IMG/VR virus record: IMGVR_UViG_3300020430_000014 | Span: 1-63,533 of that record | DNA from: a virus | Strand: one strand, 5' to 3' | DNA length: 63,533 bases | Part shown: piece by piece, positions 7,338 through 39,991 of the stretch | Position numbering within the stretch: position 1 is the first letter of the stretch | Layout of the letters: each line of letters begins with the position of its first letter | Program-made: the position numbers and the translations under genes | Notes under the pieces: model-generated | Database searches by the model: none | What the model was told of the DNA's origin: nothing | Seen by the model: the letters and a program-made list of their open reading frames with translations, nothing else

Positions 7338-7992
7338 CAAACTCTTCCCATGTTTTCCAATTCCAATTGAAGTGCATAACTTTCAAAAGGAAACTCATGA
7401 TTTGAACGTTCAGTTAATGAATGACATCTATTATGAGTTGGAGAATAGTGGAGGAGTTGTTGCAAGCAACGTTGGTGGGTGGCATAGTGAGAGTGATTTG
7501 CACACAAGATTTCCTTCCTTTCAATCTTTAATGAATATTATCAACAATGCTTTAAACCAGTATTGTGATAAGCATGGATATGAAAGTGGACTTGTGTGTA
7601 AAAGGATCTGGGCAAATTTGAATCGTGAGAACGAATACAATATGCCACATCATCACGGTAACAATGCGATGACTGGGGTTTACTATCCAGTAAAGCAAGT
7701 TATTGGAGATCTGTATGAGTTTAATTACAGTGAAAATGTTTCTCTTCAATTAGGAACTTATGATGGTGAACAGGGTGGATGTCTAACAATTCAAGATCCT
7801 TCTTACGGTTTGAAGACAAAGTTGAGGAAGAAAAAACAATATAAAGCTTTTACAGCAGATCACTATCATTACTATCCTGTTGCGGGCACTCTAGTATTAA
7901 TGCCCTCATATTTGGTACATAGCGTTTTGCCTTTTCAGGGCGAAGGTGAACGAGTAAGTATTTCTTTTTCTTGTGATTATGGAGACTATTGA
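7327..7992 (+). CDS. 2OG-Fe(II) oxygenase-like protein (TIGR02466 type)
   Basis: A 221-residue protein with the family signature LFPCFPIPIE at the start, an iron-binding segment YNMPHHHGNNAMTGVYYP, and the distal TLVLMPSYLVHSVLPFQGEGERVSISF with His and Arg. The start at ATG 7327 overlaps uvsX by 11 bases. It sits between uvsX and gp41, so it is expected to be expressed early with the replisome. The substrate is unknown. Confidence 0.83.
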   Translation: MGIDKLFPCFPIPIEVHNFQKETHDLNVQLMNDIYYELENSGGVVASNVGGWHSESDLHTRFPSFQSLMNIINNALNQYCDKHGYESGLVCKRIWANLNRENEYNMPHHHGNNAMTGVYYPVKQVIGDLYEFNYSENVSLQLGTYDGEQGGCLTIQDPSYGLKTKLRKKKQYKAFTADHYHYYPVAGTLVLMPSYLVHSVLPFQGEGERVSISFSCDYGDY

Positions 7993-9364
7993 GCACACGA
8001 TTCTAAAGAATCTTTTATATAATGAAGAATACTCCCGTAAGGTAATTCCCTTCATAAAACCTGAATACTTCCAAGAAGTATCTCAGAAGATTATGTTTGA
8101 AGAGATTGTTTCCTTCATCACAAAATACAATACACAGGTTACTGTCGAAGCACTTCTAATTGAGATTTCTGATAGGAAGGATCTCAATGAAGGCATGCTT
8201 AAAGAATTGCAGATCCTGGTTACTAATTTGCAAGATAGTCCTGCAGATCTTCAGTGGTTGTATGATACCACTGAGAAGTGGTGTCGTGATAGAGCAATCT
8301 ATCTTGCTCTAATGGACTCCATCAATATTGCTGATGGCAATGATGAGAAAAAGAATAGGGATGCTATTCCATCTATCCTTAGTGAAGCACTAGCAGTCTC
8401 TTTTGACAATAACATTGGTCACGATTACTTTGCAAATGCCGACGAACGATTCGACTACTATCATCAGAAGCAGGACAAGATCCCCTTCGACTTGGAATAC
8501 TTTAACAAGATTACAAAGGGAGGTCTTGTTAATAAGAGTCTTAATGTCGCTCTTGCTGGTACAGGCGTCGGTAAGTCTTTGTTCATGTGCCATATGGCTA
8601 GCTCCTGTTTGCTTAACGGACATAGCGTCCTATACATTACAATGGAGATGGCAGAAGAGAAAATTGCTGAGCGTATTGATGCAAACTTACTCAATGTTCC
8701 CATACAGGAGATTAGTGAACTTCCTAAGGTGATGTTTGACAGCAAAGTCACAAAATTGTCGCAAAAAACTCAAGGTTCTCTTATAATTAAGGAGTATCCC
8801 ACCGCAAGCGCACATAGTGGACATTTTAAAGCACTTCTTAATGAGCTTGCACTTAAGAAGTCATTTAGACCTGATATTATTTTCATTGATTACCTTAATA
8901 TATGCGCTTCCTCAAGATATCGCGCAAATGGCAATGTCAATTCATATTCGTATATTAAGTCTATTGCAGAGGAGCTTAGAGGATTGGCTGTTGAAGCAAA
9001 CGTCCCTATCGTATCTGCCACGCAGACCACTCGTTCTGGTTACGGTAGCTCTGATGTTGACCTTACTGACACTTCTGAGTCCTTTGGTCTCCCTGCTACT
9101 GCTGATCTTATGTTTGCCCTTATTAGCACAGATGAATTGGAGGAACTCGGGCAGATTATGGTGAAGCAGTTGAAGAATAGATACAATGATTTGTCTGTCA
9201 ATAAGAGATTTATTGTTGGTATTGATCGTGCTAAAATGAGACTGTATGATTGTGAGCAATCAGCACAGAATGATGTTCTTGACAGTGGTCAAGACGAAGA
9301 GTATGAGAATGAAGATAGAAAATCTTCCCGCAAAGAAAAGTTTGGAACCTTCAAGTTTGATTGA
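7979..9364 (+). CDS. 41: replicative helicase gp41 (DnaB-like)
   Basis: The 5'-3' hexameric helicase that unwinds the fork and works with gp61 primase. The N-terminal helical domain (METIEHTILKNLL... like T4 gp41) is followed by a RecA-type motor: Walker A AGTGVGKS at about residues 193-200, Walker B IIFIDYLNIC, and an ATQTTRSG motif. It is 461 residues, close to T4 gp41 (475). The ATG at 7979 is preferred over a GTG two codons upstream. It overlaps the preceding oxygenase gene by 14 bases. Confidence 0.95.
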   Translation: METIEHTILKNLLYNEEYSRKVIPFIKPEYFQEVSQKIMFEEIVSFITKYNTQVTVEALLIEISDRKDLNEGMLKELQILVTNLQDSPADLQWLYDTTEKWCRDRAIYLALMDSINIADGNDEKKNRDAIPSILSEALAVSFDNNIGHDYFANADERFDYYHQKQDKIPFDLEYFNKITKGGLVNKSLNVALAGTGVGKSLFMCHMASSCLLNGHSVLYITMEMAEEKIAERIDANLLNVPIQEISELPKVMFDSKVTKLSQKTQGSLIIKEYPTASAHSGHFKALLNELALKKSFRPDIIFIDYLNICASSRYRANGNVNSYSYIKSIAEELRGLAVEANVPIVSATQTTRSGYGSSDVDLTDTSESFGLPATADLMFALISTDELEELGQIMVKQLKNRYNDLSVNKRFIVGIDRAKMRLYDCEQSAQNDVLDSGQDEEYENEDRKSSRKEKFGTFKFD

Positions 9365-9366
9365 TT

Positions 9367-9897
9367 ATGAAAAGCATTAACCCTGAATTGATTGGTGATT
9401 TTAAATCCATTGAGTATCCTGCAAGGAGGCAGTTCCCTAGTGATGAGATCGTAGAGCGTTGGAAGAGTCGTGGACATCTTTATGTCAATTACACTGGACT
9501 TCTTCGTGAAGAGTATCGTGGAGTTCCTGAATGGACACATGATATTGTAGACTCGCTTAAGAAAAAATATATTACTGTTGATGATAAGTGGTACTTCATG
9601 AAAGAGACTTCTCTATCTCTTTATAATATGCCACCAGGAACTATCATGCCTGAGCATGAAGATACTTATCCTAGGTTTAGAGAGATCTATAATGAACCTG
9701 ATATTAACAAGATTTGTAGGGTTTTGATCTTCCTTGAAGATTGGAAGACAGGACATTATTTTGAGTTAGATCAACAACCATATGTCAAATGGAAGAAAGG
9801 TGATTATCTCTGGTGGACTGGAGATACTACACACTTGGCAGCAAACCTTGGACTTGAGAATAGATATACTATGCAAATTACAGCGACTTTGGCATGA
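9367..9897 (+). CDS. 2OG-Fe(II) oxygenase-like protein
   Basis: A 176-residue protein with an HxD iron motif in TIMPEHEDTYPRF and a distal GDTTHLAANLGLENRYTMQIT that supplies His and Arg. The intervening strands (VLIFLEDW..GHYFELD) fit a jelly-roll oxygenase. It begins two bases after gp41 and its stop overlaps the next ATG (ATGA). It is a separate lineage from the TIGR02466-type genes nearby, judging by its HED rather than HxH/HH motif. Substrate unknown. Confidence 0.78.
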   Translation: MKSINPELIGDFKSIEYPARRQFPSDEIVERWKSRGHLYVNYTGLLREEYRGVPEWTHDIVDSLKKKYITVDDKWYFMKETSLSLYNMPPGTIMPEHEDTYPRFREIYNEPDINKICRVLIFLEDWKTGHYFELDQQPYVKWKKGDYLWWTGDTTHLAANLGLENRYTMQITATLA

Positions 9898-10607
9898 GGA
9901 AGAGGAGAGCAGTAATAGATGATCTTGTAGAGCAGTATGGTGATTACTGCTCTACTTTTACTTTTAAGTTGAGGTCTGGATTAGAAGGACAAATTCACAA
10001 AGAGGGATTTATTAATTGCTTCTGGAATAAGACTAGTAAATTAGTTTACATGCACATTGATAAGTGTGGAAGTACATCTGTATCCTCTGCACTAAAACTG
10101 CATTGTCCTAGGTTTATATCTCTTGATCTATTAAAGACGGATAAAGATCCAGATTATCTTGCAAAATATTTTGTTGAAAGTGGTCATACATTTTTTGCTG
10201 TAACAAGAGATCCTGCACAAAGATGGATCTCTGGACTCAATGAGTTTATGTGTAGATATAAACCACCTCTTGAATGGGTTGTTGGTCAGGTTGAGAAGGG
10301 CAAGTTTATTTTTGATGAACACACTGGTCCTCAAACAACATTCCTAAGATTGTGTCTTGAGAATCAAGGTAAAATTAAACTGATTAGGATGGAAGGGGAT
10401 CTCTCTGTAAAAGTAAACTTGTTTATGAAAAATAATACAGAAGATTATAAACCATTTCCAGTTCCTCACCTTAGGGATTCTAAGTATTTTACTCCCAATT
10501 ACAAACCGTTGTGTGCTAAGATATATAATGAGTATGTAGAACCAAACAACAAAGAGTTTTTGGATCTTTATGAATCGGATTATGAATTGTACGCAAAAGG
10601 TATCTGA
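9894..10607 (+). CDS. sulfotransferase-like protein
   Basis: A 237-residue protein with both PAPS-binding signatures: a 5'-phosphosulfate loop MHIDKCGSTSVSSAL near residues 50-63 and a 3'-phosphate strand VTRDPAQRWISG near 105-115. The family moves sulfate from PAPS to carbohydrate or protein acceptors. It opens the first glycan island, next to a DegT-like aminotransferase that overlaps its 3' end. Sulfated glycans on the virion or host surface are a plausible product, but this is inference. Phage genes of this type are uncommon. Confidence 0.82.
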   Translation: MRKRRAVIDDLVEQYGDYCSTFTFKLRSGLEGQIHKEGFINCFWNKTSKLVYMHIDKCGSTSVSSALKLHCPRFISLDLLKTDKDPDYLAKYFVESGHTFFAVTRDPAQRWISGLNEFMCRYKPPLEWVVGQVEKGKFIFDEHTGPQTTFLRLCLENQGKIKLIRMEGDLSVKVNLFMKNNTEDYKPFPVPHLRDSKYFTPNYKPLCAKIYNEYVEPNNKEFLDLYESDYELYAKGI

Positions 10608-11196
10608 CCCCTTCCATTCTGTCGAGAGGTTTGAAGATACGATAGCGAATTTTTATGGTGCCAAGTATGGTATTGCCACTGACTGCTGTACTCATGCAAT
10701 TGAATTGTGTTTAAGATATGAAGGATACGACAGAATAACATTACCAGAGCATACTTATATTTCTATTCCAATGACCTGCAAGAAACTTGGTCTTGATTGG
10801 AGATTTGATAATATTCAGTGGTATGATCAATACCATCTTGGCGGTACTAATATTATTGACGGTGCAGTTTTGTGGAGACCAAATTCATATGTCTCTGGAA
10901 CTTATTTGTGTTTGAGTTTTCAATATAGGAAGCATCTATCTTTGGGTAGAGGTGGAATGATTCTGACAGATGATGATTATGCTGCGGAACAGTTGCGGAT
11001 GATGACCTATGATGGACGTAAGAAGTATGTTCCTTGGGGTGATCAAAATATTAGTGTTATGGGGTATCACTACTATATGACTCCAGAGACTGCAGAGAGA
11101 GGACTTGAGGCATTTGACGAAGTAAAAGATTCATTCCCTCTTGCAATGAGTTATAAAGATTATCCATATCTTCCTGACATGAGTATTTTTAAATGA
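10570..11196 (+). CDS. short DegT/DnrJ/EryC1-type aminotransferase
   Basis: A PLP-dependent sugar aminotransferase fold, but only 208 residues against the usual 360-400. Kept features are the FYGAKYGIATDCCTHAIELCL cofactor-pocket segment, TYISIPM, the acidic residue in NIIDGAVLW, and the Schiff-base lysine in SFQYRKHLSLGRGGM (Lys about 121). The C-terminal small domain is missing, and the frame ends cleanly into the next gene's ATG, so it is compact rather than freshly broken. It might be a minimal enzyme or a binding-only relative. An internal ATG at 10582 is an alternative start. Confidence 0.75.
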   Translation: MNRIMNCTQKVSDPFHSVERFEDTIANFYGAKYGIATDCCTHAIELCLRYEGYDRITLPEHTYISIPMTCKKLGLDWRFDNIQWYDQYHLGGTNIIDGAVLWRPNSYVSGTYLCLSFQYRKHLSLGRGGMILTDDDYAAEQLRMMTYDGRKKYVPWGDQNISVMGYHYYMTPETAERGLEAFDEVKDSFPLAMSYKDYPYLPDMSIFK

Positions 11197-12056
11197 ATAA
11201 ACTGAAGGGACTTCCTCCCATCATGTACTTGAATTTGGATCATAGGACTGATAGGAAGGAACACATTGAAGGTCAATTTAAAAAGTGGGGCATTACTGAT
11301 TTTACTCGGTGGTCTGCTTCCAGATTTTCCACTAAAAAAATTGATGAGTGGGGTCATAAGTTAGACTTGATGCTCCTTGCTCCATCTGACGCATCAATTG
11401 TAATGAATGAATTTACAATGATGATTGAGTGGTATGAATCTGGTATATCTGAGAACCTGCTCATCATTCAGGATGATTTGTGTTTTGATCTTGTTGAGTA
11501 TTGGCCATTTGACTGGGAGACAATAATGAAGAGTCTTCCATACAATTGGGAGATTGTTCAGTTTTACCACTGCCATGATTATCAAATCAAGATGCATCTT
11601 CATCCTAGACAGTGGCATAGTTCTTCCGCTGCTATCTTTATGGTCAACAGATCTTTTGTTGAGAAGTTGATGAAGATACACCTTCAACCTGATGGATCTT
11701 TTAAGTTGGATCAAAGTCTTAGAGATCTTCAGGTTCCTAGAGAGTCTTATAGTAGTGATGACTTTTTGATTTATCAGGTCGGTAAATCTTATTCTCTTCC
11801 TCTTTTAACTTTGGATCCTAAGTTAGCAGTAGCACAAGACAATAAACAACAGTCAGATTCAGATTACGATCCGATCATTGCTGTTTATCATAATAAAATA
11901 TATGATATTCTTGCCACTTCTTGTATTAAAAAATGGTGGGAAGAAAAGAGTTCTGGATATTCGGCGGAAGATATTTTATCTTGGGGTGATGCAATTCACG
12001 AAACTATGTTGATTCAATTACCTCGATATGATTACGTAGATCAGAACCATGAGTAA
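11193..12056 (+). CDS. GT25-type glycosyltransferase, copy A
   Basis: First of five tandem paralogues. GT25 enzymes transfer sugars to LPS cores in bacteria and to hydroxylysine in collagen-type systems. The start YLNLDHRTDRKEHIEGQF matches the family N-terminal signature. The acidic motif is changed to QDD (LLIIQDDLCFD) instead of EDD, followed by the shared FDWETIMKSLPYNW block. It is 287 residues. It overlaps its neighbours by 4-8 bases, so the array is one translational unit. Activity is uncertain because of the E-to-Q change. Confidence 0.78.
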   Translation: MNKLKGLPPIMYLNLDHRTDRKEHIEGQFKKWGITDFTRWSASRFSTKKIDEWGHKLDLMLLAPSDASIVMNEFTMMIEWYESGISENLLIIQDDLCFDLVEYWPFDWETIMKSLPYNWEIVQFYHCHDYQIKMHLHPRQWHSSSAAIFMVNRSFVEKLMKIHLQPDGSFKLDQSLRDLQVPRESYSSDDFLIYQVGKSYSLPLLTLDPKLAVAQDNKQQSDSDYDPIIAVYHNKIYDILATSCIKKWWEEKSSGYSAEDILSWGDAIHETMLIQLPRYDYVDQNHE

Positions 12057-12909
12057 TAATTCTAATACAGATGCCTCTTTAAAACTGAGGGGAATTCCTA
12101 AGATCATCTACAGGAATCATGACAGTGATGTAGAGAATAAAAAAGAAATTGAGAGTCAGTTCTTATCTAGGAATATTGTCGATTATCAGAGACACTCCAA
12201 TAAATATCATGAAGTCGATTATGCCGATTGGTCTGGCATGATTCTTGATAAGGGTTTGGTTAGAACTCCTGATGAGTATGCAGAGTCTCTCAATATTATT
12301 GACGCTATTGTTCAGTGGTATGATTCCGAATCCTCTGAGGTTTGTATATTTACAGATGATTATATAGACTTATCTTTATGTGATTCGTGGATGTTTGATT
12401 GGCAGTTTTTATATCATCATCTTCCATACAATTGGGATTGTATTCAGTTAGGAGTCTCATCCACTAGATTTATTAAGATGCATCTCCATCCTTGGATTCC
12501 AAGTAATAAGTCCATGCATTGTTTTATGATCAGTAGAACTTTTGCAAAGAGGTTGAAGAAGTTTCATTTTATTGATGGTAAATATAGATTATCGTATCCC
12601 TCACCAAATCGATCCTTACTGTTTACTGATTATGGATTGCTAGATGCATTTTTTTATGATATTGGGATAACTTACACACTTCCTGTATTTGCTCCTAGAG
12701 TGGTGGATAAGCATAGTCTTGCATATCAAATATCATCTGATGCAATAAAATATTGGTGGAAGCATAAATCTGCTAAGTTTTCTAATTTTGAATTCTTCCA
12801 TTATAATAAAGGTGATAAAGAATGGAAGATGGAAGTTTTATTTGATACTCAAGGTAGTAGACCAGAAGTATACATGGATCCTATGGAGGGGGTATTGTTA
12901 TGGATTTAG
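12049..12909 (+). CDS. GT25-type glycosyltransferase paralogue, copy B (degenerate)
   Basis: A 286-residue paralogue of its neighbours, recognisable by FDWQFLYHHLPYNWDCIQLG and by IKMHLHPW. The N-terminal sugar-binding signature is eroded (YRNHDSDVENKKEIESQF instead of NLDxRTDR), and the acidic motif is TDD instead of EDD. The reading frame is nevertheless intact. It may be a non-catalytic subunit, an altered-specificity enzyme or a decaying copy. Confidence 0.72.
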   Translation: MSNNSNTDASLKLRGIPKIIYRNHDSDVENKKEIESQFLSRNIVDYQRHSNKYHEVDYADWSGMILDKGLVRTPDEYAESLNIIDAIVQWYDSESSEVCIFTDDYIDLSLCDSWMFDWQFLYHHLPYNWDCIQLGVSSTRFIKMHLHPWIPSNKSMHCFMISRTFAKRLKKFHFIDGKYRLSYPSPNRSLLFTDYGLLDAFFYDIGITYTLPVFAPRVVDKHSLAYQISSDAIKYWWKHKSAKFSNFEFFHYNKGDKEWKMEVLFDTQGSRPEVYMDPMEGVLLWI

Positions 12910-15405: not shown

Positions 15406-16367
15406 CTTCAACAAATGAATGGGATCAACTTAAAAAAGTAATTGTTGGTGTCGCTGACTTTGCAAGAATACCTGAGATGGATAAAAGTCTTAGGACAATT
15501 AACTATGCTGATAGAGATCAAGTTGATTCAGTAAAAACTGGACCATATCCTCAGAAAGTTATCGATGAAGCTAATGAAGACCTTGAGACCTTCTGTGAAT
15601 TCTTGCGTGGGGAGAGTGTAGAAGTCCTGAGACCAAATAGAGAACCAACTGATTACTATAATTATTGTCCTAGGGATTCAGTATTCATTCATGGAGATCT
15701 TGTTGTAGCAACTCCACAACCATTAAGATCGAGAGTAGGTAATTGGAGGTCATTCAAGCACCATCTCAAAAATGTTGTGGAGATGCCATGCTCATATCAT
15801 GATGGATTATATAATGAACGATGTATTGGTAATCCAGATATACTTGCTCTTACTGAACTGACACCTGCATTTGATGCAGCTAATGCAATTAGGGCAAATG
15901 AAGATGTTCTGTATTTACAGTCTAATAGTGGTAACGCTGCAGGAGCACATCTACTTCAAAGTCTTTTGAATTCTGATGCACATGTATCTATAGTTAAAGA
16001 TATCTATACATATGTTCACATAGATACTACCATTGCATTCTTGAGAGAGGGATTGATGATGGTTAATCCCACTAGAGTTACTGATCCTAGGAAGCAGTTA
16101 CCTCATCCTTTTAATATGTGGGAGATTATTGCAGCACCTGATCCAATTGACATAGGATATTATCCTGGGTATAATAATGCTTCGGAGTGGTGCAACATGA
16201 ATTTATTCAGCGTGTCACCTAATCTGGTTGCTCTTGAAGAACATCAGCATCCAACTAGACGAATATTGGAAACATATGGAATTGAGTGTGCTATGCTGCC
16301 TATGAGGCATCAAAGAACTCTTAGTGGAGGATTCCACTGCGTAACATTAGACTTGGAGAGAGAATGA
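15402..16367 (+). CDS. amidinotransferase (glycine/inosamine amidinotransferase family)
   Basis: Moves an amidino group from arginine to an amine acceptor. The 321-residue protein has the start NEWDQLKKVIVGVAD, CPRDSVF with Asp 92, YVHIDTTI with His 206 and the nucleophile Cys 313 in SGGFHCVTLDL, matching the Cys-His-Asp triad of the family. Genes on either side act on sugars, so the acceptor may be an amino sugar (as in inosamine transferases), perhaps made by the DegT-like protein. The acceptor is inference. Confidence 0.85.
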   Translation: MTSTNEWDQLKKVIVGVADFARIPEMDKSLRTINYADRDQVDSVKTGPYPQKVIDEANEDLETFCEFLRGESVEVLRPNREPTDYYNYCPRDSVFIHGDLVVATPQPLRSRVGNWRSFKHHLKNVVEMPCSYHDGLYNERCIGNPDILALTELTPAFDAANAIRANEDVLYLQSNSGNAAGAHLLQSLLNSDAHVSIVKDIYTYVHIDTTIAFLREGLMMVNPTRVTDPRKQLPHPFNMWEIIAAPDPIDIGYYPGYNNASEWCNMNLFSVSPNLVALEEHQHPTRRILETYGIECAMLPMRHQRTLSGGFHCVTLDLERE

Positions 16368-17725
16368 ACATAGGATTTATTGGCACAGGGAAACTTGGGG
16401 GACCAGTATCAGAAGCAATGGCCGAATCTGGCAATCAAATATATGCTTATGATCCTGCTGGTGGAGAGAATCTTACTGCAACTAAACTCAAAAGTGGTGG
16501 ATCTAGAAAGTATTACAAATCCATCAAGAGTGTTGTTCAAAAGTCTACTATAGTTTTTGTTGCCGTTCCTACACCTCATAGTGAAGAGTATGATGGTAGT
16601 CTTCCATGCATGGATTTAGAACCAAAGGATTTTGATTACACTATACTCAAAGAAGTTCTTACCGAAGTTAACAAATATGCGTCATTACAGCAGCAGGTAG
16701 TTTTGATCTCTACTGTTCTTCCTGGAACTATTAGAGAACAACTTCTTCCCTTGGTGCCAAATTGTACTCTCATTTACAATCCATATCTTATTGCTATGGG
16801 TACAGTAAAGGATGACTTTAAAAATCCAGAGATGATAATGATTGGAACTGAGAATGGTTTATCTACAGATAACATTTTGTTCAGGTCATTACTTAAATTG
16901 TATTTGGGTTGCACAGAAATTATACCTAGAGGTAAAGCAAGAATAGAGGATTGCGAGAGAAATGTAACGGAAAAAGACCCAGAGTTTTTAAGTAAGTTTG
17001 TTACAGGAACTTATGAAGAGATGGAATGCGTTAAAGTCTTTTATAACACATTCATTAGTAGTAAAATCTCTTTTGTAAATATGATTCAAGACGTTGCAGA
17101 ACGTCAAGGGAACATTGATGTTGATGTTGTAACTAACGCTCTCACTAGTGCATCTACTAGGATTATTAGTCCTGCATATATGAAGGCGGGAATGGGTGAT
17201 GGTGGAGCATGTCACCCTAGAGATAATATTGCCCTAAGGTATCTGTCTCAAAAATTAGATTTGGGATATGATATTTTTGAGTCTGTAATGCGATCTAGAG
17301 AACAACAGGCAAAAAATCTTGCCGAGTTCCTGGTCAAACTTGCAGAGACTTGTAGAAGTCCCATTGTCATTCATGGTAAAGCATACAAACCAAAAGTGCC
17401 TTATGTTGATGGTAGTTACAGTCTCTTGGTTGGACATTACATTGAACAGCTTGGTGAGAGGGTTCGATATGTTGATCCATATACTGGCGACAAGTGGAGT
17501 GGTCCAGCAGTCTTCTTACTTGCTCATAGCGTGAGTACAACTTATAGGTATTGGGATAAACAGAATACTGGAGATGAAGTCTATTGTGACTTCCCATTTG
17601 GTAGTGTTATTGTTGATCCTTGGAGGAAGTTCAAGGCACCAGATGATGAACCATTGGAAGTAATTTATTACGGGAATACTAGAGGTAAAGCAGATCATGA
17701 CTCTCAGCAAAATAACACTATTTGA
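16364..17725 (+). CDS. UDP-glucose/nucleotide-sugar 6-dehydrogenase family protein
   Basis: A 453-residue NAD-dependent enzyme that oxidises the C6 alcohol of a nucleotide sugar to a carboxylate. It has an N-terminal Rossmann loop GFIGTGKLGGP, STVLPGT, and the catalytic Cys about 283 in GDGGACHPRDN, followed by a C-terminal domain with a GKAYKPKVPYVDGS segment. It supplies uronic-acid donors, fitting the neighbouring transferases. It overlaps the amidinotransferase by four bases and the next gene by 29. Confidence 0.88.
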   Translation: MNIGFIGTGKLGGPVSEAMAESGNQIYAYDPAGGENLTATKLKSGGSRKYYKSIKSVVQKSTIVFVAVPTPHSEEYDGSLPCMDLEPKDFDYTILKEVLTEVNKYASLQQQVVLISTVLPGTIREQLLPLVPNCTLIYNPYLIAMGTVKDDFKNPEMIMIGTENGLSTDNILFRSLLKLYLGCTEIIPRGKARIEDCERNVTEKDPEFLSKFVTGTYEEMECVKVFYNTFISSKISFVNMIQDVAERQGNIDVDVVTNALTSASTRIISPAYMKAGMGDGGACHPRDNIALRYLSQKLDLGYDIFESVMRSREQQAKNLAEFLVKLAETCRSPIVIHGKAYKPKVPYVDGSYSLLVGHYIEQLGERVRYVDPYTGDKWSGPAVFLLAHSVSTTYRYWDKQNTGDEVYCDFPFGSVIVDPWRKFKAPDDEPLEVIYYGNTRGKADHDSQQNNTI

Positions 17726-18251
17726 GATATCTTCATTTAGATATTCTATTCCAAATTGGGAAGAGAAGAAAGCAAAACTGGTAAAAATGTTGGATAGTGT
17801 GGAGTATGAATGGCATATGTGCTCCACAGATTTTTATACATCTGATGGTAGAGCACCCTATTTTGATGAGTGGTATTCAATCATGAAAAATGATCTGGAT
17901 AATGTTCTTCCGCACCTTGGACTACATTATCATCCAAAAGAATTTTGGCATTTGTGGTCACAAGAGTATAGAGGAAATGAATTCCATGGTCCTCACAATC
18001 ATGGAAATGCTGTCTTGTCTGCAGTTTTATACTTGGATCTTCATCCAATGGAACATGGTGGAACAACATTCTATGCTCCTTTTGTGGAACCACTTATTGG
18101 AACAGTTGCTGACGTAACAGCACAAGTTAATGAAGGAGATATTTTGTTCTTCCCTGGAACCCTTCTTCATGAAGCTAGAGCAACCCTCTCTGAAAAAAAG
18201 AGGAAGATTATATCTTTTAATATTCCAATTAAACTGTTTAACCCATGCTAG
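17697..18251 (+). CDS. 2OG-Fe(II) oxygenase-like protein, tandem copy 1
   Basis: A 184-residue TIGR02466-type oxygenase. Iron-binding FHGPHNHGNAVLSAVLYLD and distal GDILFFPGTLLHEARATLSEKKRKIISFN with His and basic 2OG-binding residues are present. It overlaps the dehydrogenase gene by 29 bases and the next gene, its duplicate, by 7. Its position at the end of the sugar island hints at a glycan or glycoprotein substrate. Confidence 0.82.
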   Translation: MTLSKITLFEISSFRYSIPNWEEKKAKLVKMLDSVEYEWHMCSTDFYTSDGRAPYFDEWYSIMKNDLDNVLPHLGLHYHPKEFWHLWSQEYRGNEFHGPHNHGNAVLSAVLYLDLHPMEHGGTTFYAPFVEPLIGTVADVTAQVNEGDILFFPGTLLHEARATLSEKKRKIISFNIPIKLFNPC

Positions 18252-18784
18252 GAGTCAAAGATTTATTTTCGATTAAGATTATAAAGTATTCTATATTAGA
18301 TTGGGAAAGTAAAAAACCAAAACTTCTTGAGATGATTGATAAATCTCATAGTGCATGGAATGAATGTGATACAGATTACTTTACTAGTAATGGAAGAGCA
18401 CCTTACTTTGATGAGTGGTACTCTCTTTTAGAGGAAGATTTAAATGAAATAAGATCTAAAGTTCCATTACCATTTAAAGGACCAGAAGAGTGGCAACTTT
18501 GGTCACAGACATATAATAAAGGTGATTATCACTCTCTTCATAATCATGGATTGGGTAATATGTCCGCTGTGCTACATGTTGAATTTGATCCAGAGGAACA
18601 TATGTCAACGACTTTTTGTTCTCCATTCCCAGATCCATTTTTTGGTAGAATAGAGACTTTGGGTTTGACTGATGTTCAGGAAGGTGATATTGTACTGTTC
18701 CCTGCGATGCTTGGTCATGAGTGTAGGGTTCAGCAATCCAGCAAACCAAGAAAAATAATGTCATTCAATATTCCTATTGGATAG
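18245..18784 (+). CDS. 2OG-Fe(II) oxygenase-like protein, tandem copy 2
   Basis: A 179-residue duplicate of the preceding gene. Shared stretches include NGRAPYFDEWYS, the iron-binding YHSLHNHGLGNMSAVLHVE, and GDIVLFPAMLGHECRVQQSSKPRKIMSFN. Both copies retain the iron ligands, so both may be active with different substrates, or as a heterodimer. It ends the first modification island. Confidence 0.82.
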   Translation: MLGVKDLFSIKIIKYSILDWESKKPKLLEMIDKSHSAWNECDTDYFTSNGRAPYFDEWYSLLEEDLNEIRSKVPLPFKGPEEWQLWSQTYNKGDYHSLHNHGLGNMSAVLHVEFDPEEHMSTTFCSPFPDPFFGRIETLGLTDVQEGDIVLFPAMLGHECRVQQSSKPRKIMSFNIPIG

Positions 18785-19811: not shown

Positions 19812-19819
19812 TATAAATA
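19812..19819 (+). promoter_or_regulatory. late promoter TATAAATA
   Basis: A perfect T4-type late promoter box, 20 bases before the internal-protein gene at 19839. Confidence 0.7.
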
Positions 19820-19838: not shown

Positions 19839-20453
19839 ATGAAAAAGTTTTCGCAATTTATTGACGAAGCAAAGTCTCTTGCCTCAATTCAAGGTAAGAG
19901 ACTTGGTTTGGTGCCTGATGGGCATGGGTCTTTTCATGACAAAAAAACTGGTGAATTTATTGCGAAAAACGTTGGCGGTAAATTAAAGTTTTATAACCAA
20001 AACCAAGTTCTTGGTGCAACCGATCCACCACAAAAAAGAACTTCAAACAATCAAAGACCAGTAGCAGCACAAACTTCTAAAATTAAGAAGACAAAAAACA
20101 GTGTAACTACTGAAGTTCCCGAACAACTTACTCGCGAACAAGAGCAAGAACTTAGAGAAAAGTATATTGCTGGTGAGATTTTTTGTGAAGGATCTTTTGT
20201 CCATAACATCAAGACAGACCAGATTGGAAAGATTGTCCGTAGAGGTACAAATCATCTCATCTGTGTAACATCTGAAGATGATATGTTCAAGTCTTGGATT
20301 AGAGATGTTCGTGAATGGACTGAAGTATCGGGGGTTCCTGCCGATCAAAGGTTAGTCGGAACGGATGCTCATAGAGAGTATGCCATGATGATGACGGGCA
20401 CCAAGAAAATTAAGAATTTCATAAATAAATACAAGGCAAAAAAGAAGCACTAG
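19839..20453 (+). CDS. putative packaged internal virion protein with capsid-targeting N-terminus
   Basis: A 204-residue basic protein. Its N-terminus MKKFSQFIDEA has the same spacing as the T4 capsid-targeting sequence MKTYQEFIAEA shared by internal proteins IPI-III and Alt, with F7, I8, E10 and A11 aligned; T4 prohead protease cuts after E10. A second block is GKRLGLVPDGHGSFHDKKTGEF. The C-terminus is Lys-rich (KNFINKYKAKKKH). A late promoter lies upstream. Packaging in the head is inferred, supported by the two other basic proteins that follow. Confidence 0.72.
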   Translation: MKKFSQFIDEAKSLASIQGKRLGLVPDGHGSFHDKKTGEFIAKNVGGKLKFYNQNQVLGATDPPQKRTSNNQRPVAAQTSKIKKTKNSVTTEVPEQLTREQEQELREKYIAGEIFCEGSFVHNIKTDQIGKIVRRGTNHLICVTSEDDMFKSWIRDVREWTEVSGVPADQRLVGTDAHREYAMMMTGTKKIKNFINKYKAKKKH

Positions 20454-20457
20454 AGTA

Positions 20458-21810
20458 ATGGCAAACCTTAAGCATGTTGTCTCTGATCTTCATCAGGTAT
20501 ATCTGGCGGAGATGGAAGCAAAGATTAAACCTCAGTTAGATAAGTCTTCTGCATCTTCCAGCGGATCAGATGGCGGTGAGAAGAAAGATAATTCTGCTGG
20601 TGGTGGCGGGGACAATGTTCAGAAGGCAGCAAGACAACTTGCCTATGACACCAGATATAAAGCAAGAAGAGAAGGTATTCCTCTAGAGAGAGCATTTACT
20701 CAATCTGTTCAAAACTCTAGCGCACCTGCTCCTGTTAAGGATGCGGCAAAGAGTCTTCTTTTTTCAGGCGAGAAGAAGGAGTCTGTTGAGATTGATGGAT
20801 CTATTGAAGAAGCAAGAAAGGGTGATAAAGAAAAGGTTCGTGTTACTCCTAAGAAAGGATATGGCGATACCAAAGGATATGTAAGATTTGCTGATGCTAA
20901 GAAGAAGCATGAACTGAGATCAAATCCCCAGATTCAGTCTGTAACTCCTACGGATCATGGCGATGCTTATGAGGGTGAAGGTGATAAAGGTAAGAAGGAC
21001 GATAAGAAAACGTCTGGCAAACTTGATCCTGTCGGCAAGGAAGACGGTGATGTCAACAACGACGGTAAGAAGGATAAGACCGATAAGTATCTGATGAAGC
21101 GCCGTAAGGCAATTGGTAAGGCAATCTCTAAGACCAAAAAAGAAGAGTTCTCTAACTGGAAGGCAGATCTTGGTATCGAAGAAGAGACCATGGTCGAAGT
21201 TGCTGGAGAAGAGAAGCCAAAAAAGATCACTGGTAAAGGTGTAAAGAACAAGATTGAGATTCATCCTGATCTCAAAGAAGGCATCGGTAAACTCGGTGGC
21301 GAAGTTCTTGAGGTTGAAGAAGTTGAAGTAGATGAGGTCTACAAGGGCAAGCACGGTCAGTCCGATAAAGAGTATGCTGCTTCTCGTTCTCAGGGCGGTA
21401 AAATGATCTCTGGCGATGACAAGAGATCTGGTGCTGAATACACCCATGGACGCAGAGTCAAGGCAGCAAACCCTGGTATGCAACCTGATGTGGGTGGCAA
21501 GACCAAACCCAAGTCCCAAGGTAAAATGGACAAGGGCACCAGGGCAGACCTGATGTATCGCAAGGCAAACCTCAAGAAGGAAGAGACTATTCATGAGGAG
21601 AAGCCTTATGAGAGACTTGATCGCTTGAATAAGGAGAGAATCGCTAAGCAGAAGGCAGCAAAAGATGCTGAGACTGCAAAGAGAGACAAGCGTATTTCTG
21701 ACTTCAAAAAGTTCAGAGAAGGTGAGCGTGCTGCGGGAACTCGTCATGATAAGATTCTTGACAAGTGGCAACAGAAAAAAATTGCTGCTGATAAAGCAAA
21801 AAAGCAGTAG
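20458..21810 (+). CDS. large charged, probably virion-associated protein (0-frame product)
   Basis: A 450-residue, Lys/Glu/Gly-rich, low-complexity protein with no membrane segment. An EF-hand/dockerin-like calcium loop (DGDVNNDGKKDKTDKYL) lies near residues 195-211, followed by RRKAIGKAI. An Ala-rich, basic C-terminus resembles DNA-condensing proteins. Its last codons contain A AAA AAG immediately before the stop, so part of translation probably continues in the -1 frame to 22310 (617 residues in total). It sits directly after the capsid-targeted protein. Confidence 0.72.
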   Translation: MANLKHVVSDLHQVYLAEMEAKIKPQLDKSSASSSGSDGGEKKDNSAGGGGDNVQKAARQLAYDTRYKARREGIPLERAFTQSVQNSSAPAPVKDAAKSLLFSGEKKESVEIDGSIEEARKGDKEKVRVTPKKGYGDTKGYVRFADAKKKHELRSNPQIQSVTPTDHGDAYEGEGDKGKKDDKKTSGKLDPVGKEDGDVNNDGKKDKTDKYLMKRRKAIGKAISKTKKEEFSNWKADLGIEEETMVEVAGEEKPKKITGKGVKNKIEIHPDLKEGIGKLGGEVLEVEEVEVDEVYKGKHGQSDKEYAASRSQGGKMISGDDKRSGAEYTHGRRVKAANPGMQPDVGGKTKPKSQGKMDKGTRADLMYRKANLKKEETIHEEKPYERLDRLNKERIAKQKAAKDAETAKRDKRISDFKKFREGERAAGTRHDKILDKWQQKKIAADKAKKQ

Positions 21811-21840
21811 GCGAGGCAGCACAACCTAGTGCTTCCTCGC
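21798..21840 (+). promoter_or_regulatory. programmed -1 ribosomal frameshift signal
   Basis: The slippery heptamer A AAA AAG (21798-21804), in phase with the upstream frame, is the same heptamer used by E. coli dnaX. A six-base spacer (CAGTAG, containing the 0-frame stop) follows. Then comes a strong hairpin at 21811-21840: GCGAGG/CCTCGC and AGCAC/GTGCT separated by one C-T mismatch, with a six-base loop. All three elements have canonical order and spacing. Confidence 0.85.
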
Positions 21841-22310
21841 TCAGAGCAAAGCAGCAAGACACTGAGCGTCAGCAAATGCAGAATGCGAGAGCTGAGATGG
21901 AGAAATCCAGATCAGCTGCAGGTCAATCTAAGATCAAAGCAAGAAAAGATGCTGAAGATCTTAATGCCAGAATTCGTTCTGTTGCTAGTGAAGAGGCTGG
22001 TTTAGATGAGCGTACTCGTTACGCTAAAGAAACTGGTAAAGACTTCAAGACTGGTAATCCTTCTGAGAAGGGTGGAACCCGTGACGGCAAGAGTGCGTTT
22101 GATAAGGTCTCTCGTGAGATGAGAAAGACTGGTGGCATGATGTCTTCTAGAAAGAATGCCATTCAACCACAAGGTAAGAAGAAGGAAAAGGGTAAGAAGG
22201 GTTATCAAGGTGTAACACCTGTTGATAGAATCAAGAACAAACTTGCCCAAAAGAGAAAGCCTAAACCAGATCCATATGGATATGGTCAAGGTCGCTATCA
22301 GGGTGACTGA
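21804..22310 (+). CDS. -1 frame extension of the 20458 gene
   Basis: After slippage the frame runs open for 168 codons, giving a 617-residue fusion. The junction reads AVGEAAQPSASSLRAK in the -1 frame, with the same Lys/Arg/Gln/Ala-rich composition as both sides. The first internal ATG (21876) has no ribosome-binding site, which argues against separate translation. The C-terminal part is basic (KKKEKGKKGY, NKLAQKRKPKP) and looks DNA- or RNA-binding. It has no recognised domain. Confidence 0.75.
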   Translation, partial: AVGEAAQPSASSLRAKQQDTERQQMQNARAEMEKSRSAAGQSKIKARKDAEDLNARIRSVASEEAGLDERTRYAKETGKDFKTGNPSEKGGTRDGKSAFDKVSREMRKTGGMMSSRKNAIQPQGKKKEKGKKGYQGVTPVDRIKNKLAQKRKPKPDPYGYGQGRYQGD

Positions 22311-22363
22311 TTAAAAAATCATTAAGTCTGCTATATAGTCTGTATAGTAGACTGAGGTTCATC

Positions 22364-22576
22364 ATGTTAGCATTCTTGCTCCCATTAGCATCAAAAATTA
22401 TTACTGATGCTGTATCAAAGATTCCTGAGAACGAGGAATTGGGCGAAAAATTAATCGAAATTTGTCTGATGATTCTTGGCAAAGCAGTCAAGTTGACCAA
22501 AACAGACATGGATGATCAACTGCTTGAGGCGGTATCGGCAGCGATCAGAGCACGTTCAGAAGAATCCGCTGAGTGA
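22364..22576 (+). CDS. small membrane-associated protein
   Basis: A 70-residue protein with a hydrophobic start (MLAFLLPLASKIITDAV) and a second hydrophobic helix (LIEICLMILGKAVKL), then a polar tail. It could be a small holin-like or scaffold protein; nothing decides between these. It is followed immediately by a strong terminator and stands as a single-gene unit. Confidence 0.62.
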   Translation: MLAFLLPLASKIITDAVSKIPENEELGEKLIEICLMILGKAVKLTKTDMDDQLLEAVSAAIRARSEESAE

Positions 22577-22581
22577 TCCCA

Positions 22582-22605
22582 GGGGAGCATTGCTCCCCTC
22601 TTTTG
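22582..22605 (+). terminator. Rho-independent terminator
   Basis: A perfect stem GGGGAGC/GCTCCCC with a short ATT loop (22582-22599), then CTTTT. It ends the unit containing 22364-22576. Confidence 0.85.
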
Positions 22606-22619
22606 TACGGGATGGTTTT

Positions 22620-22627
22620 TATAAATA
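22620..22627 (+). promoter_or_regulatory. late promoter TATAAATA
   Basis: A perfect late box placed after the terminator and 35 bases upstream of the virion-protein gene at 22662. Confidence 0.75.
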
Positions 22628-22661
22628 AAAAAAGGTAACTGAATTTTACGGACAGTAAGAC

Positions 22662-23189
22662 ATGGCACTCTGGGGAAATAGTGATAACGTAACCTCTGCA
22701 GGAACAGTAACCCTGAACTACGCGACTGGTATTTGCACTGGAGGCGGTACAGCCTTTGGCGCAGCGGGTAGTGCTCAGGAAGGTGATGTGATCAGATTCG
22801 GTGATCGCAGCGGTACTTATTTTGGTGATGCTGTAATTGTCAGCATTGCAAGCGCAACTCAATTAACAATTGGTTCTACTGCAGGACTTAGTGGTGCAGC
22901 GATTGCTGCTACCTCGTTCACCGTCTCGCAGTGCCCTGTCAGTTCTATTGGTGATGTCACCTATAGTGAAGGTGCTTCTGGTACAGAAGACAAAGCAATC
23001 TATGGCGTTGCTGCTGCAGGTTTGACTAATACCGCAGGTTCCAAGTATGAACTTGATCATGGTGGTTGGGTTGGTGTTACAACCTATGTTGACCAGCATG
23101 GAGAGTTGAGAGTCAAGAAGGAAGTTCTTGTTGCGATGTCTGGCATCACAACTGGTAACGCTCCTGTATATGACACCAACCCATTCTGA
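22662..23189 (+). CDS. probable virion structural protein
   Basis: A 175-residue Gly/Ala/Thr-rich, beta-strand-rich protein (MALWGNSDNVTSAGTVTLNYATG...) with a repeating small-residue strand pattern, as seen in capsid decoration or fibre proteins. It is alone behind a perfect late promoter and a terminator, consistent with high late expression. It resembles virion proteins of other cyanophages as far as memory allows. Location in the particle is unknown. Confidence 0.65.
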   Translation: MALWGNSDNVTSAGTVTLNYATGICTGGGTAFGAAGSAQEGDVIRFGDRSGTYFGDAVIVSIASATQLTIGSTAGLSGAAIAATSFTVSQCPVSSIGDVTYSEGASGTEDKAIYGVAAAGLTNTAGSKYELDHGGWVGVTTYVDQHGELRVKKEVLVAMSGITTGNAPVYDTNPF

Positions 23190-38794: not shown

Positions 38795-39372
38795 AAATTA
38801 TTGATAACTTATTTGAGAGTAAGACTATAAATGATCTGTCTAAAAGTGTGGATGAGCATGTCAAGAATAATTTATTGTTTGATGATCAGATTAAAGTAAC
38901 CAAATCTATAATTGATTGTCATGGACTTGCTTTATCTAGATCAAAATATTTTCCATACTCTCAAAACTGTTGGAACATATTTTGTTTAAAGGTAAAAAAG
39001 CATGTTGTTGATTATTGCATGGAATATGATGTTGATCCTTTCAATGTAATACCGTACTCATGTTGGTCTGAGAGATCTGTATACAGTCCTGGGGATAATA
39101 CTGTTATGGATGATCCTGACTATGCATATGATTACGATGGTCAAGTTAAAAAGACTTTTATCCGTTCTGTGTATAAATTAAAAGGATCTTTGGGTGTCAA
39201 AGTTGGTGAAGAATGTATACAGTTGAAGCAGAATTCTTTACTTGTTTATAATGGCACTGAAAATAAAAGCTCTAACATATATCCACGCAAAGATGGGGAG
39301 GATAATTTGATATTTGATTGGTATATAAATGATCCTTTTGACGTACCTGATTGGATACTTCCGCTCACGTAA
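38791..39372 (+). CDS. diverged oxygenase-related protein lacking iron ligands
   Basis: A 193-residue protein. The block NCWNIFCLKVKKHVVDYC..DVDPFNVIPYSCWSERS lines up with the 39365 oxygenase (SLWKMFYSEVRRHIAKYC...MDPETIKLHSTWITRV), but the HxH/HxD iron segment is missing. It may be a catalytically dead partner. It converges on the minus-strand gene and overlaps its 3' end by eight bases. Confidence 0.6.
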   Translation: MKIIDNLFESKTINDLSKSVDEHVKNNLLFDDQIKVTKSIIDCHGLALSRSKYFPYSQNCWNIFCLKVKKHVVDYCMEYDVDPFNVIPYSCWSERSVYSPGDNTVMDDPDYAYDYDGQVKKTFIRSVYKLKGSLGVKVGEECIQLKQNSLLVYNGTENKSSNIYPRKDGEDNLIFDWYINDPFDVPDWILPLT

Positions 39373-39991
39373 AGCAGCAATCAACTACGATAGTTATTCT
39401 TGGATAAGTTTCTACTATATCTAAAGTCGGATATAGTGCAGTATGATATAGTTCTGGATTGAATATCATCATACTGTTCTCTTCACCATTATTATTAAAA
39501 ACTTTTTTATCTGTCAACTGTACGATTGTTCCATACTTTGGATCTGGATTTTTTAAGTAATACACAACTCCGATTGGATTATCGGTATGTGAGTGCATAT
39601 TGCCAAAGGTACTGTGGTTGTTTAATCTTGCCCTTAATTGGTTTTTAGTATGAGTTCCTTCAAACTCTATGTCTGCAACTCTTGTGATCCAAGTCGAATG
39701 TAATTTTATTGTCTCTGGGTCCATACCCACAACTTGACAATATTTTGCAATGTGCCTTCTGACTTCAGAATAGAACATTTTCCATAGACTATCCGAAGTA
39801 AACTCTTCATACGAGAAGAGAGAACTTGTTGATTCTGGTGGATATACCTCTTGCGTAACTGGTTTTCTAGTTTTCTCTAACCATCTTACGGCAGAAGAAT
39901 ATAGTTCTGGAAGAGCCGCGTCAGGAACTACATCAAATGCTTTATAGAAATAATGATCCTCGTGCTTTTTGACTTGAATCTTCCTATTCAT
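39365..39991 (-). CDS. 2OG-Fe(II) oxygenase-like protein on the minus strand
   Basis: A 208-residue protein with FGNMHSHTDNPIGVVYYLKNP (HxH-type iron site) and the distal MMIFNPELYHTALYPT...YPRITIVVD with His and Arg. It is the only minus-strand gene between 1 and 53658, lying head-to-head with gmd across a 72-base promoter region. Convergence with the 38791 paralogue suggests an inverted duplication. Confidence 0.8.
   Translation of the reverse strand: MNRKIQVKKHEDHYFYKAFDVVPDAALPELYSSAVRWLEKTRKPVTQEVYPPESTSSLFSYEEFTSDSLWKMFYSEVRRHIAKYCQVVGMDPETIKLHSTWITRVADIEFEGTHTKNQLRARLNNHSTFGNMHSHTDNPIGVVYYLKNPDPKYGTIVQLTDKKVFNNNGEENSMMIFNPELYHTALYPTLDIVETYPRITIVVDCCFT

Follow-up and report, generated by a model that had tools for sequence, protein, structure and literature searches.

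The window, a viral DNA fragment of 63,533 bases, carries a gene whose product starts with MKKFSQFIDEA. It is preceded by a late-promoter-like element and followed by genes for basic proteins. The features of this region are listed below.

19812..19819, + strand: late-promoter-like octamer TATAAATA, at -27 to -20 relative to the start codon
19839..20453, + strand: gene of the leader-tagged protein, 204 aa, ATG start, pI 9.7; related to T4-GC190, without the nucleotidyltransferase domain
19839..19868, + strand: capsid-targeting leader, residues 1-10 (MKKFSQFIDE), assigned by homolog conservation and comparison with T4
19868/19869, + strand: predicted cut site after E10, placed by comparison with T4
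19896..20018, + strand: DGHG module, residues 20-60, which follows the leader in full-length relatives too
20094..20099, + strand: junction at residues 86/87, the position of the nucleotidyltransferase domain in full-length relatives, located by alignment (PF01467 in relatives, absent here)
20133..20432, + strand: C-terminal module, residues 99-198, a predicted small beta barrel weakly like SH3/KOW/Tudor folds
20458..21810, + strand: gene of a basic protein (450 aa, pI 9.5) homologous to the virion proteins 89 and 92 of S-SCSM1
21876..22310, + strand: gene of a basic protein (144 aa, pI 10.2) homologous to the C-terminal part of S-SCSM1 virion protein 92
22662..23189, + strand: last gene of the probable virion-gene block, encoding a homolog of S-SCSM1 virion protein 95 (annotated tail fiber); a separate copy of TATAAATA precedes it at 22620

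The sequence-only reading had described an open reading frame with a T4-like leader, lying behind a late promoter and directly before two basic proteins, and each of these elements is found. The genes at 20458, 21876 and 22662 encode homologs of S-SCSM1 virion proteins, and 19839-23189 therefore looks like a virion-gene block within the replication cluster. Similarity of the two basic proteins to S-CREM2 gp155/gp160 is not significant; their homologs are found in S-SCSM1 instead. Immediately upstream of mazG, at 16364-18784, a UDP-glucose/GDP-mannose dehydrogenase gene is followed by two tandem 2OG-Fe(II) oxygenase paralogs.

The promoter octamer itself is not rare, with four copies on the + strand of the window. 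Its type is conserved in homologs: among 62 distinct homolog upstream regions, 59 contain an ATAAATA-type element, in most cases at -27 to -29. TAAATA is present within 60 nt upstream of 73 of the 118 tagged genes, compared with 234 of 1069 other ORFs on these contigs (P = 2e-18; spurious ORFs in the comparison set make the size of the effect approximate).

Relationship of the protein to T4-GC190

The closest isolate relatives are 'cytidyltransferase'/NMNAT proteins of Synechococcus and Prochlorococcus myoviruses. Full-length relatives have about 400 residues and consist of the leader, the DGHG module, a nucleotidyltransferase domain (PF01467) and the C module. The nucleotidyltransferase domain, about 200 residues with the motifs GRFNPPTxGH and SASKxRK, is absent from the window protein, for which a Pfam search returned neither PF01467 nor any other useful match. 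Sequence searches of solved structures with the protein gave nothing useful, and Foldseek with its predicted model gave SH3/KOW/Tudor matches only, which are weak and of low coverage.

In the relatives the T4-GC190 gene sits between mazG and gp61/nrdA, and the window gene does likewise. With homologous N and C modules and this conserved gene position, the protein is, judged from its sequence, a member of the cyanophage core virion family T4-GC190 / PHROG 395 (NMNAT/cytidylyltransferase-like). It has the leader, the DGHG module, the C module, the promoter and the neighbourhood in common with the family's cytidylyltransferase. However, it lacks the nucleotidyltransferase domain and cannot be the family's enzyme; on the same alignments it is a domain-loss descendant of T4-GC190. 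With the domain gone, the cargo of this member is not an injected enzyme. The earlier proposal of a tagged payload protein was thus right about the tag but missed the NMNAT/cytidylyltransferase family identity and the lost enzymatic domain.

More than 40 metagenomic relatives share the domain-less architecture, conserved and with an open reading frame, and a tree of the shared modules places the domain change in two events inside a well-supported clade. Leader, both modules and promoter are kept in these domain-less relatives; the enzyme can thus be lost with the rest retained. At loci L080 and L072, altered active-site motifs replace GRFNPPTxGH. The DGHG module recurs in two S-CREM2 proteins (L175), the Cas9-like nuclease gp12 (7704-10313) and the kinase gp14 (10579-12846).

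The leader and its occurrence

The internal proteins IPII and IPIII of T4 both start with MKTYQEFIAEA. Compared with them, the window leader is identical at M1, K2, F7, I8, E10 and A11 (6/11), and position 4 is aromatic in both, F in the window and Y in T4. The four identities named in the sequence-only reading (F7, I8, E10 and A11) all hold; M1 and K2 had been omitted. In an alignment of 31 diverse homologs M1, K2, F4 and E10 are invariant, position 7 is F in 30 and Y in one, and position 8 is hydrophobic in all 31. Positions 9 and 11 are variable, and length differences start directly after residue 11. Mutagenesis in T4 has connected residues 4 and 7 with targeting and residues 8 and 10 with processing (PMC9026906). 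The capsid-targeting reading holds because these T4-critical residues are the ones conserved in the 31 homologs. Residue 11 is A, S, T, F or V among the homologs, unlike in T4 IPII/IPIII, and A11 is thereby ruled out as a required residue of the tag.

The likeness to IPII/IPIII (Mullaney and Black 1996, as reviewed in PMC9026906) comprises the ten-residue N-terminal leader with its key residues, a late-type promoter element and a basic mature protein. Beyond the leader there is no similarity, the mature part matching cyanophage T4-GC190 families. In T4 as in cyanophages the leader is borne by otherwise unrelated proteins. However, the cyanophage tagged set is much wider than that of T4 and includes enzymes, and prohead entry and cleavage have been demonstrated in T4 alone.

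A DNA pattern for MKx[FY]xx[FY]xxE gave 27 matches in 14 phage records, three of them in T4 (IPII, IPIII and gp61.1), while the backwards pattern gave none. No match was found in S-PM2 or in the T7-like P-SSP7 among these records. In S-PM2, no leader was seen at the N-terminus of the T4-GC190-like ORF, whose context there is ambiguous, and the S-PM2 virion has been reported without the T4-GC190-like protein; given the ambiguous context, S-PM2 is not used as a negative control. In six-frame translations of seven phage genomes and the window (1.13 million residues), MK.[FYL]..[FY][ILVMF].E occurs 16 times near ORF starts and twice elsewhere. Shuffled N-termini gave a mean of 0.06 matches and a maximum of one over 500 rounds.

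A scan of viral contigs with a stricter pattern returned at least 125 matches, of which 121 start ORFs of at least 35 aa. These 121 ORFs fall into at least 46 clusters without detectable similarity past the leader. In a 52-member alignment of tagged proteins only M1, K2, F4, F7, E10 and A11 are invariant; these positions are imposed by the search pattern, so the alignment shows only the absence of other shared residues. Unrelated tagged proteins also occur within single genomes. Coincidence in one gene is ruled out as the origin of the leader by the reversed-pattern, contig-scan and shuffling results. The sequence-only reading had suggested looking for the leader on other proteins of the same genome, and none was found in the 63.5-kb fragment.

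The tagged families include CTP_transf_like, GNAT acetyltransferase, AAA_33/zeta-toxin-like P-loop, DPBB_1 and several DUFs. A further leader-tagged family of about 137 aa (L218 3736-4149, L104 229-639 and loci L327-L355) resembles KptA/Tpt1 RNA 2'-phosphotransferases of the ADP-ribosyltransferase superfamily. Its top 12 Foldseek matches are all of KptA/Tpt1 type (E about 0.01, mean model confidence 72), and PHROG 5470 gives weak support for the same likeness. T4 Alt is an ADP-ribosyltransferase that is packaged in the head and injected. The processing of its propeptide is covered in PMC9026906. Alt and the tagged cyanophage proteins have in common the idea of a head-packaged enzyme with a propeptide, but Alt is not homologous to the window protein and its propeptide differs.

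Cleavage signature and virion proteomes

The cut region of the T4 capsid protein gp23, SFLTE/A, aligns with GLLTE, NFLSE, GILNE, GMIAE, KILTE and GMLNE of cyanophage capsid proteins. A hydrophobic-x-E signature is thus common to the leaders and the cyanophage major capsid proteins, and the next residue is variable in both. In T4 gp61.1 and in S-SM2 SSM2_108 the leader is joined directly to a copy of the capsid protein N-arm. Without gaps, leader E10 falls on gp23 E65 in the former and on E57 of the S-SM2 capsid protein in the latter, and 0 of 2000 shuffles were as good. In two distantly related phages, this register brings leader E10 onto the site where the capsid protein is cut. L262 gave no significant match to the capsid N-arm, with 179 of 2000 shuffles aligning as well. 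By analogy with T4, cleavage after E10 by a gp21-type prohead protease is likely.

T4 gp61.1 (NC_000866 18966-19130, - strand, 54 aa; L326; L091) consists of the leader MKTFKEFIKE and the gp23 N-arm copy. Its F4/F7 fall on F59/F62 of gp23, with E10 in register with the cleavage residue E65. From this sequence, gp61.1 is possibly an internal T4 head protein that has been overlooked. Small copies of the capsid N-arm are also present at S-SM2 91376-91804 (L325), in S-CREM2 gp160 (L177) and at S-SCSM1 93121-93306 (L360). Among these N-arm copies, S-CREM2 gp160 and SSCSM1_97 are labelled as virion proteins. The start of SSCSM1_97 probably lies 13 codons further upstream, which gives it the propeptide-like N-terminus MDKTDRVIQLIRE.

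Published proteomes allow the leader to be compared with virion content. In S-CREM2, 52 of 219 proteins were detected in the virion (PMC10665884, Table 3). The annotated proteins with the leader pattern are gp6 (SAM hydrolase), gp13, gp14 (kinase), gp136, gp154 (cytidylyltransferase) and gp175. Five of these six are in the virion proteome (P = 0.003), the exception being gp175, a doubtful ORF of 55 aa, which is not labelled as a virion protein. The Cas9-like gp12 was detected in the virion as well; its leader-like stretch, LRFASFMAEA, is internal and precedes a DGHG module. Copies of this module are likewise present in gp14. In S-SCSM1 one of two tagged proteins is a virion protein, namely the NMNAT SSCSM1_91 with the leader MKSFLQFLKEA; SSCSM1_30, with MKTFKQFMSES, is not labelled as one (PMC9602691). 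For both phages jointly, the chance of at least six of eight tagged proteins being in the virion is about 0.002. In addition, the T4-GC190 protein of S-SM1, found in virions (PMC3037559), starts with MKKFSAFLNEA. The proteins detected are relatives that all have the nucleotidyltransferase domain, not the window protein, and in two of the S-SM1, S-CREM2 and S-SCSM1 studies the authors warn that such virion proteins are possibly contaminants. Taken from sequence together with the published proteomes of relatives, it is well supported that the leader marks virion proteins.

Proposed role of the leader-tagged protein

Proteins with no other similarity have the tag in common, virion proteomes contain tagged relatives, and homologs keep the late promoter. 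Targeting of the leader-tagged protein to the capsid is thus well supported. We give a probability of roughly 0.78 to the reading in which the leader is a T4-type capsid-targeting propeptide of a late head protein. The gene would be transcribed late, and the leader, via F4 and F7, would bring the protein into the prohead core during head building. A gp21-type prohead protease would cut after E10, and the basic mature protein of 194 residues (pI 9.8), starting with AKSLAS, would remain in the head beside the DNA. Core entry, location in the head and release of the AKSLAS end are modelled on T4. Several observations weigh against this reading: some homologs have F at position 11, a residue that might make cutting by a T4-like protease slower; SSCSM1_30 and S-CREM2 gp175 carry the leader and are not labelled as virion proteins; and the pattern search gave no leader match in S-PM2.

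The same targeting step could serve a different purpose. The mature protein may act in the head itself, in core assembly or in binding of the packaged DNA, and would then be no injected effector; we give this nearly an even chance. It fits the loss of the enzyme domain with retention of leader, modules and promoter, the basic character of the mature protein, the adjoining genes homologous to virion proteins, and the predicted small barrel of the C module, weakly like nucleic-acid-binding folds. However, that fold match is weak, and the other tagged enzymes (SAM hydrolase, kinase, Cas9-like nuclease and acetyltransferase) would fit the host cell better. For the domain-less window protein, a head-internal role is about as likely as an effector role.

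It is also conceivable that common ancestry within a single family has preserved the N-terminus for reasons other than targeting, with the virion detections caused by contamination from abundant proteins. The sequence alone would be compatible with some cyanophage-wide function besides targeting, and the study authors themselves point out that CsCl-purified virions may hold adhering proteins. However, the leader stands on at least 46 otherwise dissimilar clusters, is rare outside ORF starts, and matches the T4 internal-protein leader, and tagged proteins are enriched in a virion proteome, all of which makes this explanation unlikely. That the window gene is a decaying NMNAT remnant with a leftover leader, functionless today, would agree with the lost nucleotidyltransferase domain and the altered motifs of L080 and L072, but is highly improbable given a short architecture open and conserved in more than 40 contigs, two domain-change events on the tree within a well-supported clade, and the continued conservation of leader, both modules and promoter.

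The capsid-targeting propeptide may have a wider meaning. NMNAT-like enzymes have been found repeatedly in purified cyanophage virions (PMC3037559, PMC10665884, PMC9602691), in one phage together with a SAM hydrolase, a kinase and a Cas9-like protein (PMC10665884), and the authors of the proteomes were undecided between cargo and contaminants. A shared leader that matches the mapped T4 targeting signal may provide a mechanism for the presence of such enzymes in the particles. More tentatively, and at somewhat less than even odds, the ten-residue leader, often with the DGHG module, could be a general packaging code of marine T4-like cyanophages. It would load swappable unrelated proteins into the head (NMNAT, SAM hydrolase, kinase, Cas9-like nuclease, acetyltransferase and 2'-phosphotransferase-like proteins), which would be injected with the DNA against host defences or to reset metabolism. 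The window protein would then be a reduced carrier after loss of its enzyme domain.

The capsid-targeting sequence of T4 is known. Its occurrence in cyanophages with an unusually wide tagged set is apparently unreported: in the open-access papers searched, we found no earlier report of it apart from an incidental mention in one T4 review. The leader predicts mature N-termini to the residue, and with it the packaged set of a T4-like cyanophage can be read off the sequence. Tagged proteins also suggest themselves as a place to look for counter-defence factors with which abundant ocean viruses act early in infection.

Leader-type starts are also seen in the freshwater cyanophage S-CRM01 (99847-104000, L201; 139045-139440, L202), where they stand on a cytidyltransferase, a kinase, an acetyltransferase and a protein of 79 aa. 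Vibrio phage KVP40 has two (39187-39834 and 156073 onwards; L096 and L193). One of these two KVP40 proteins, to which Pfam assigns no family, is methyltransferase-like by eye (LDYGAGKYGRNAEFL).
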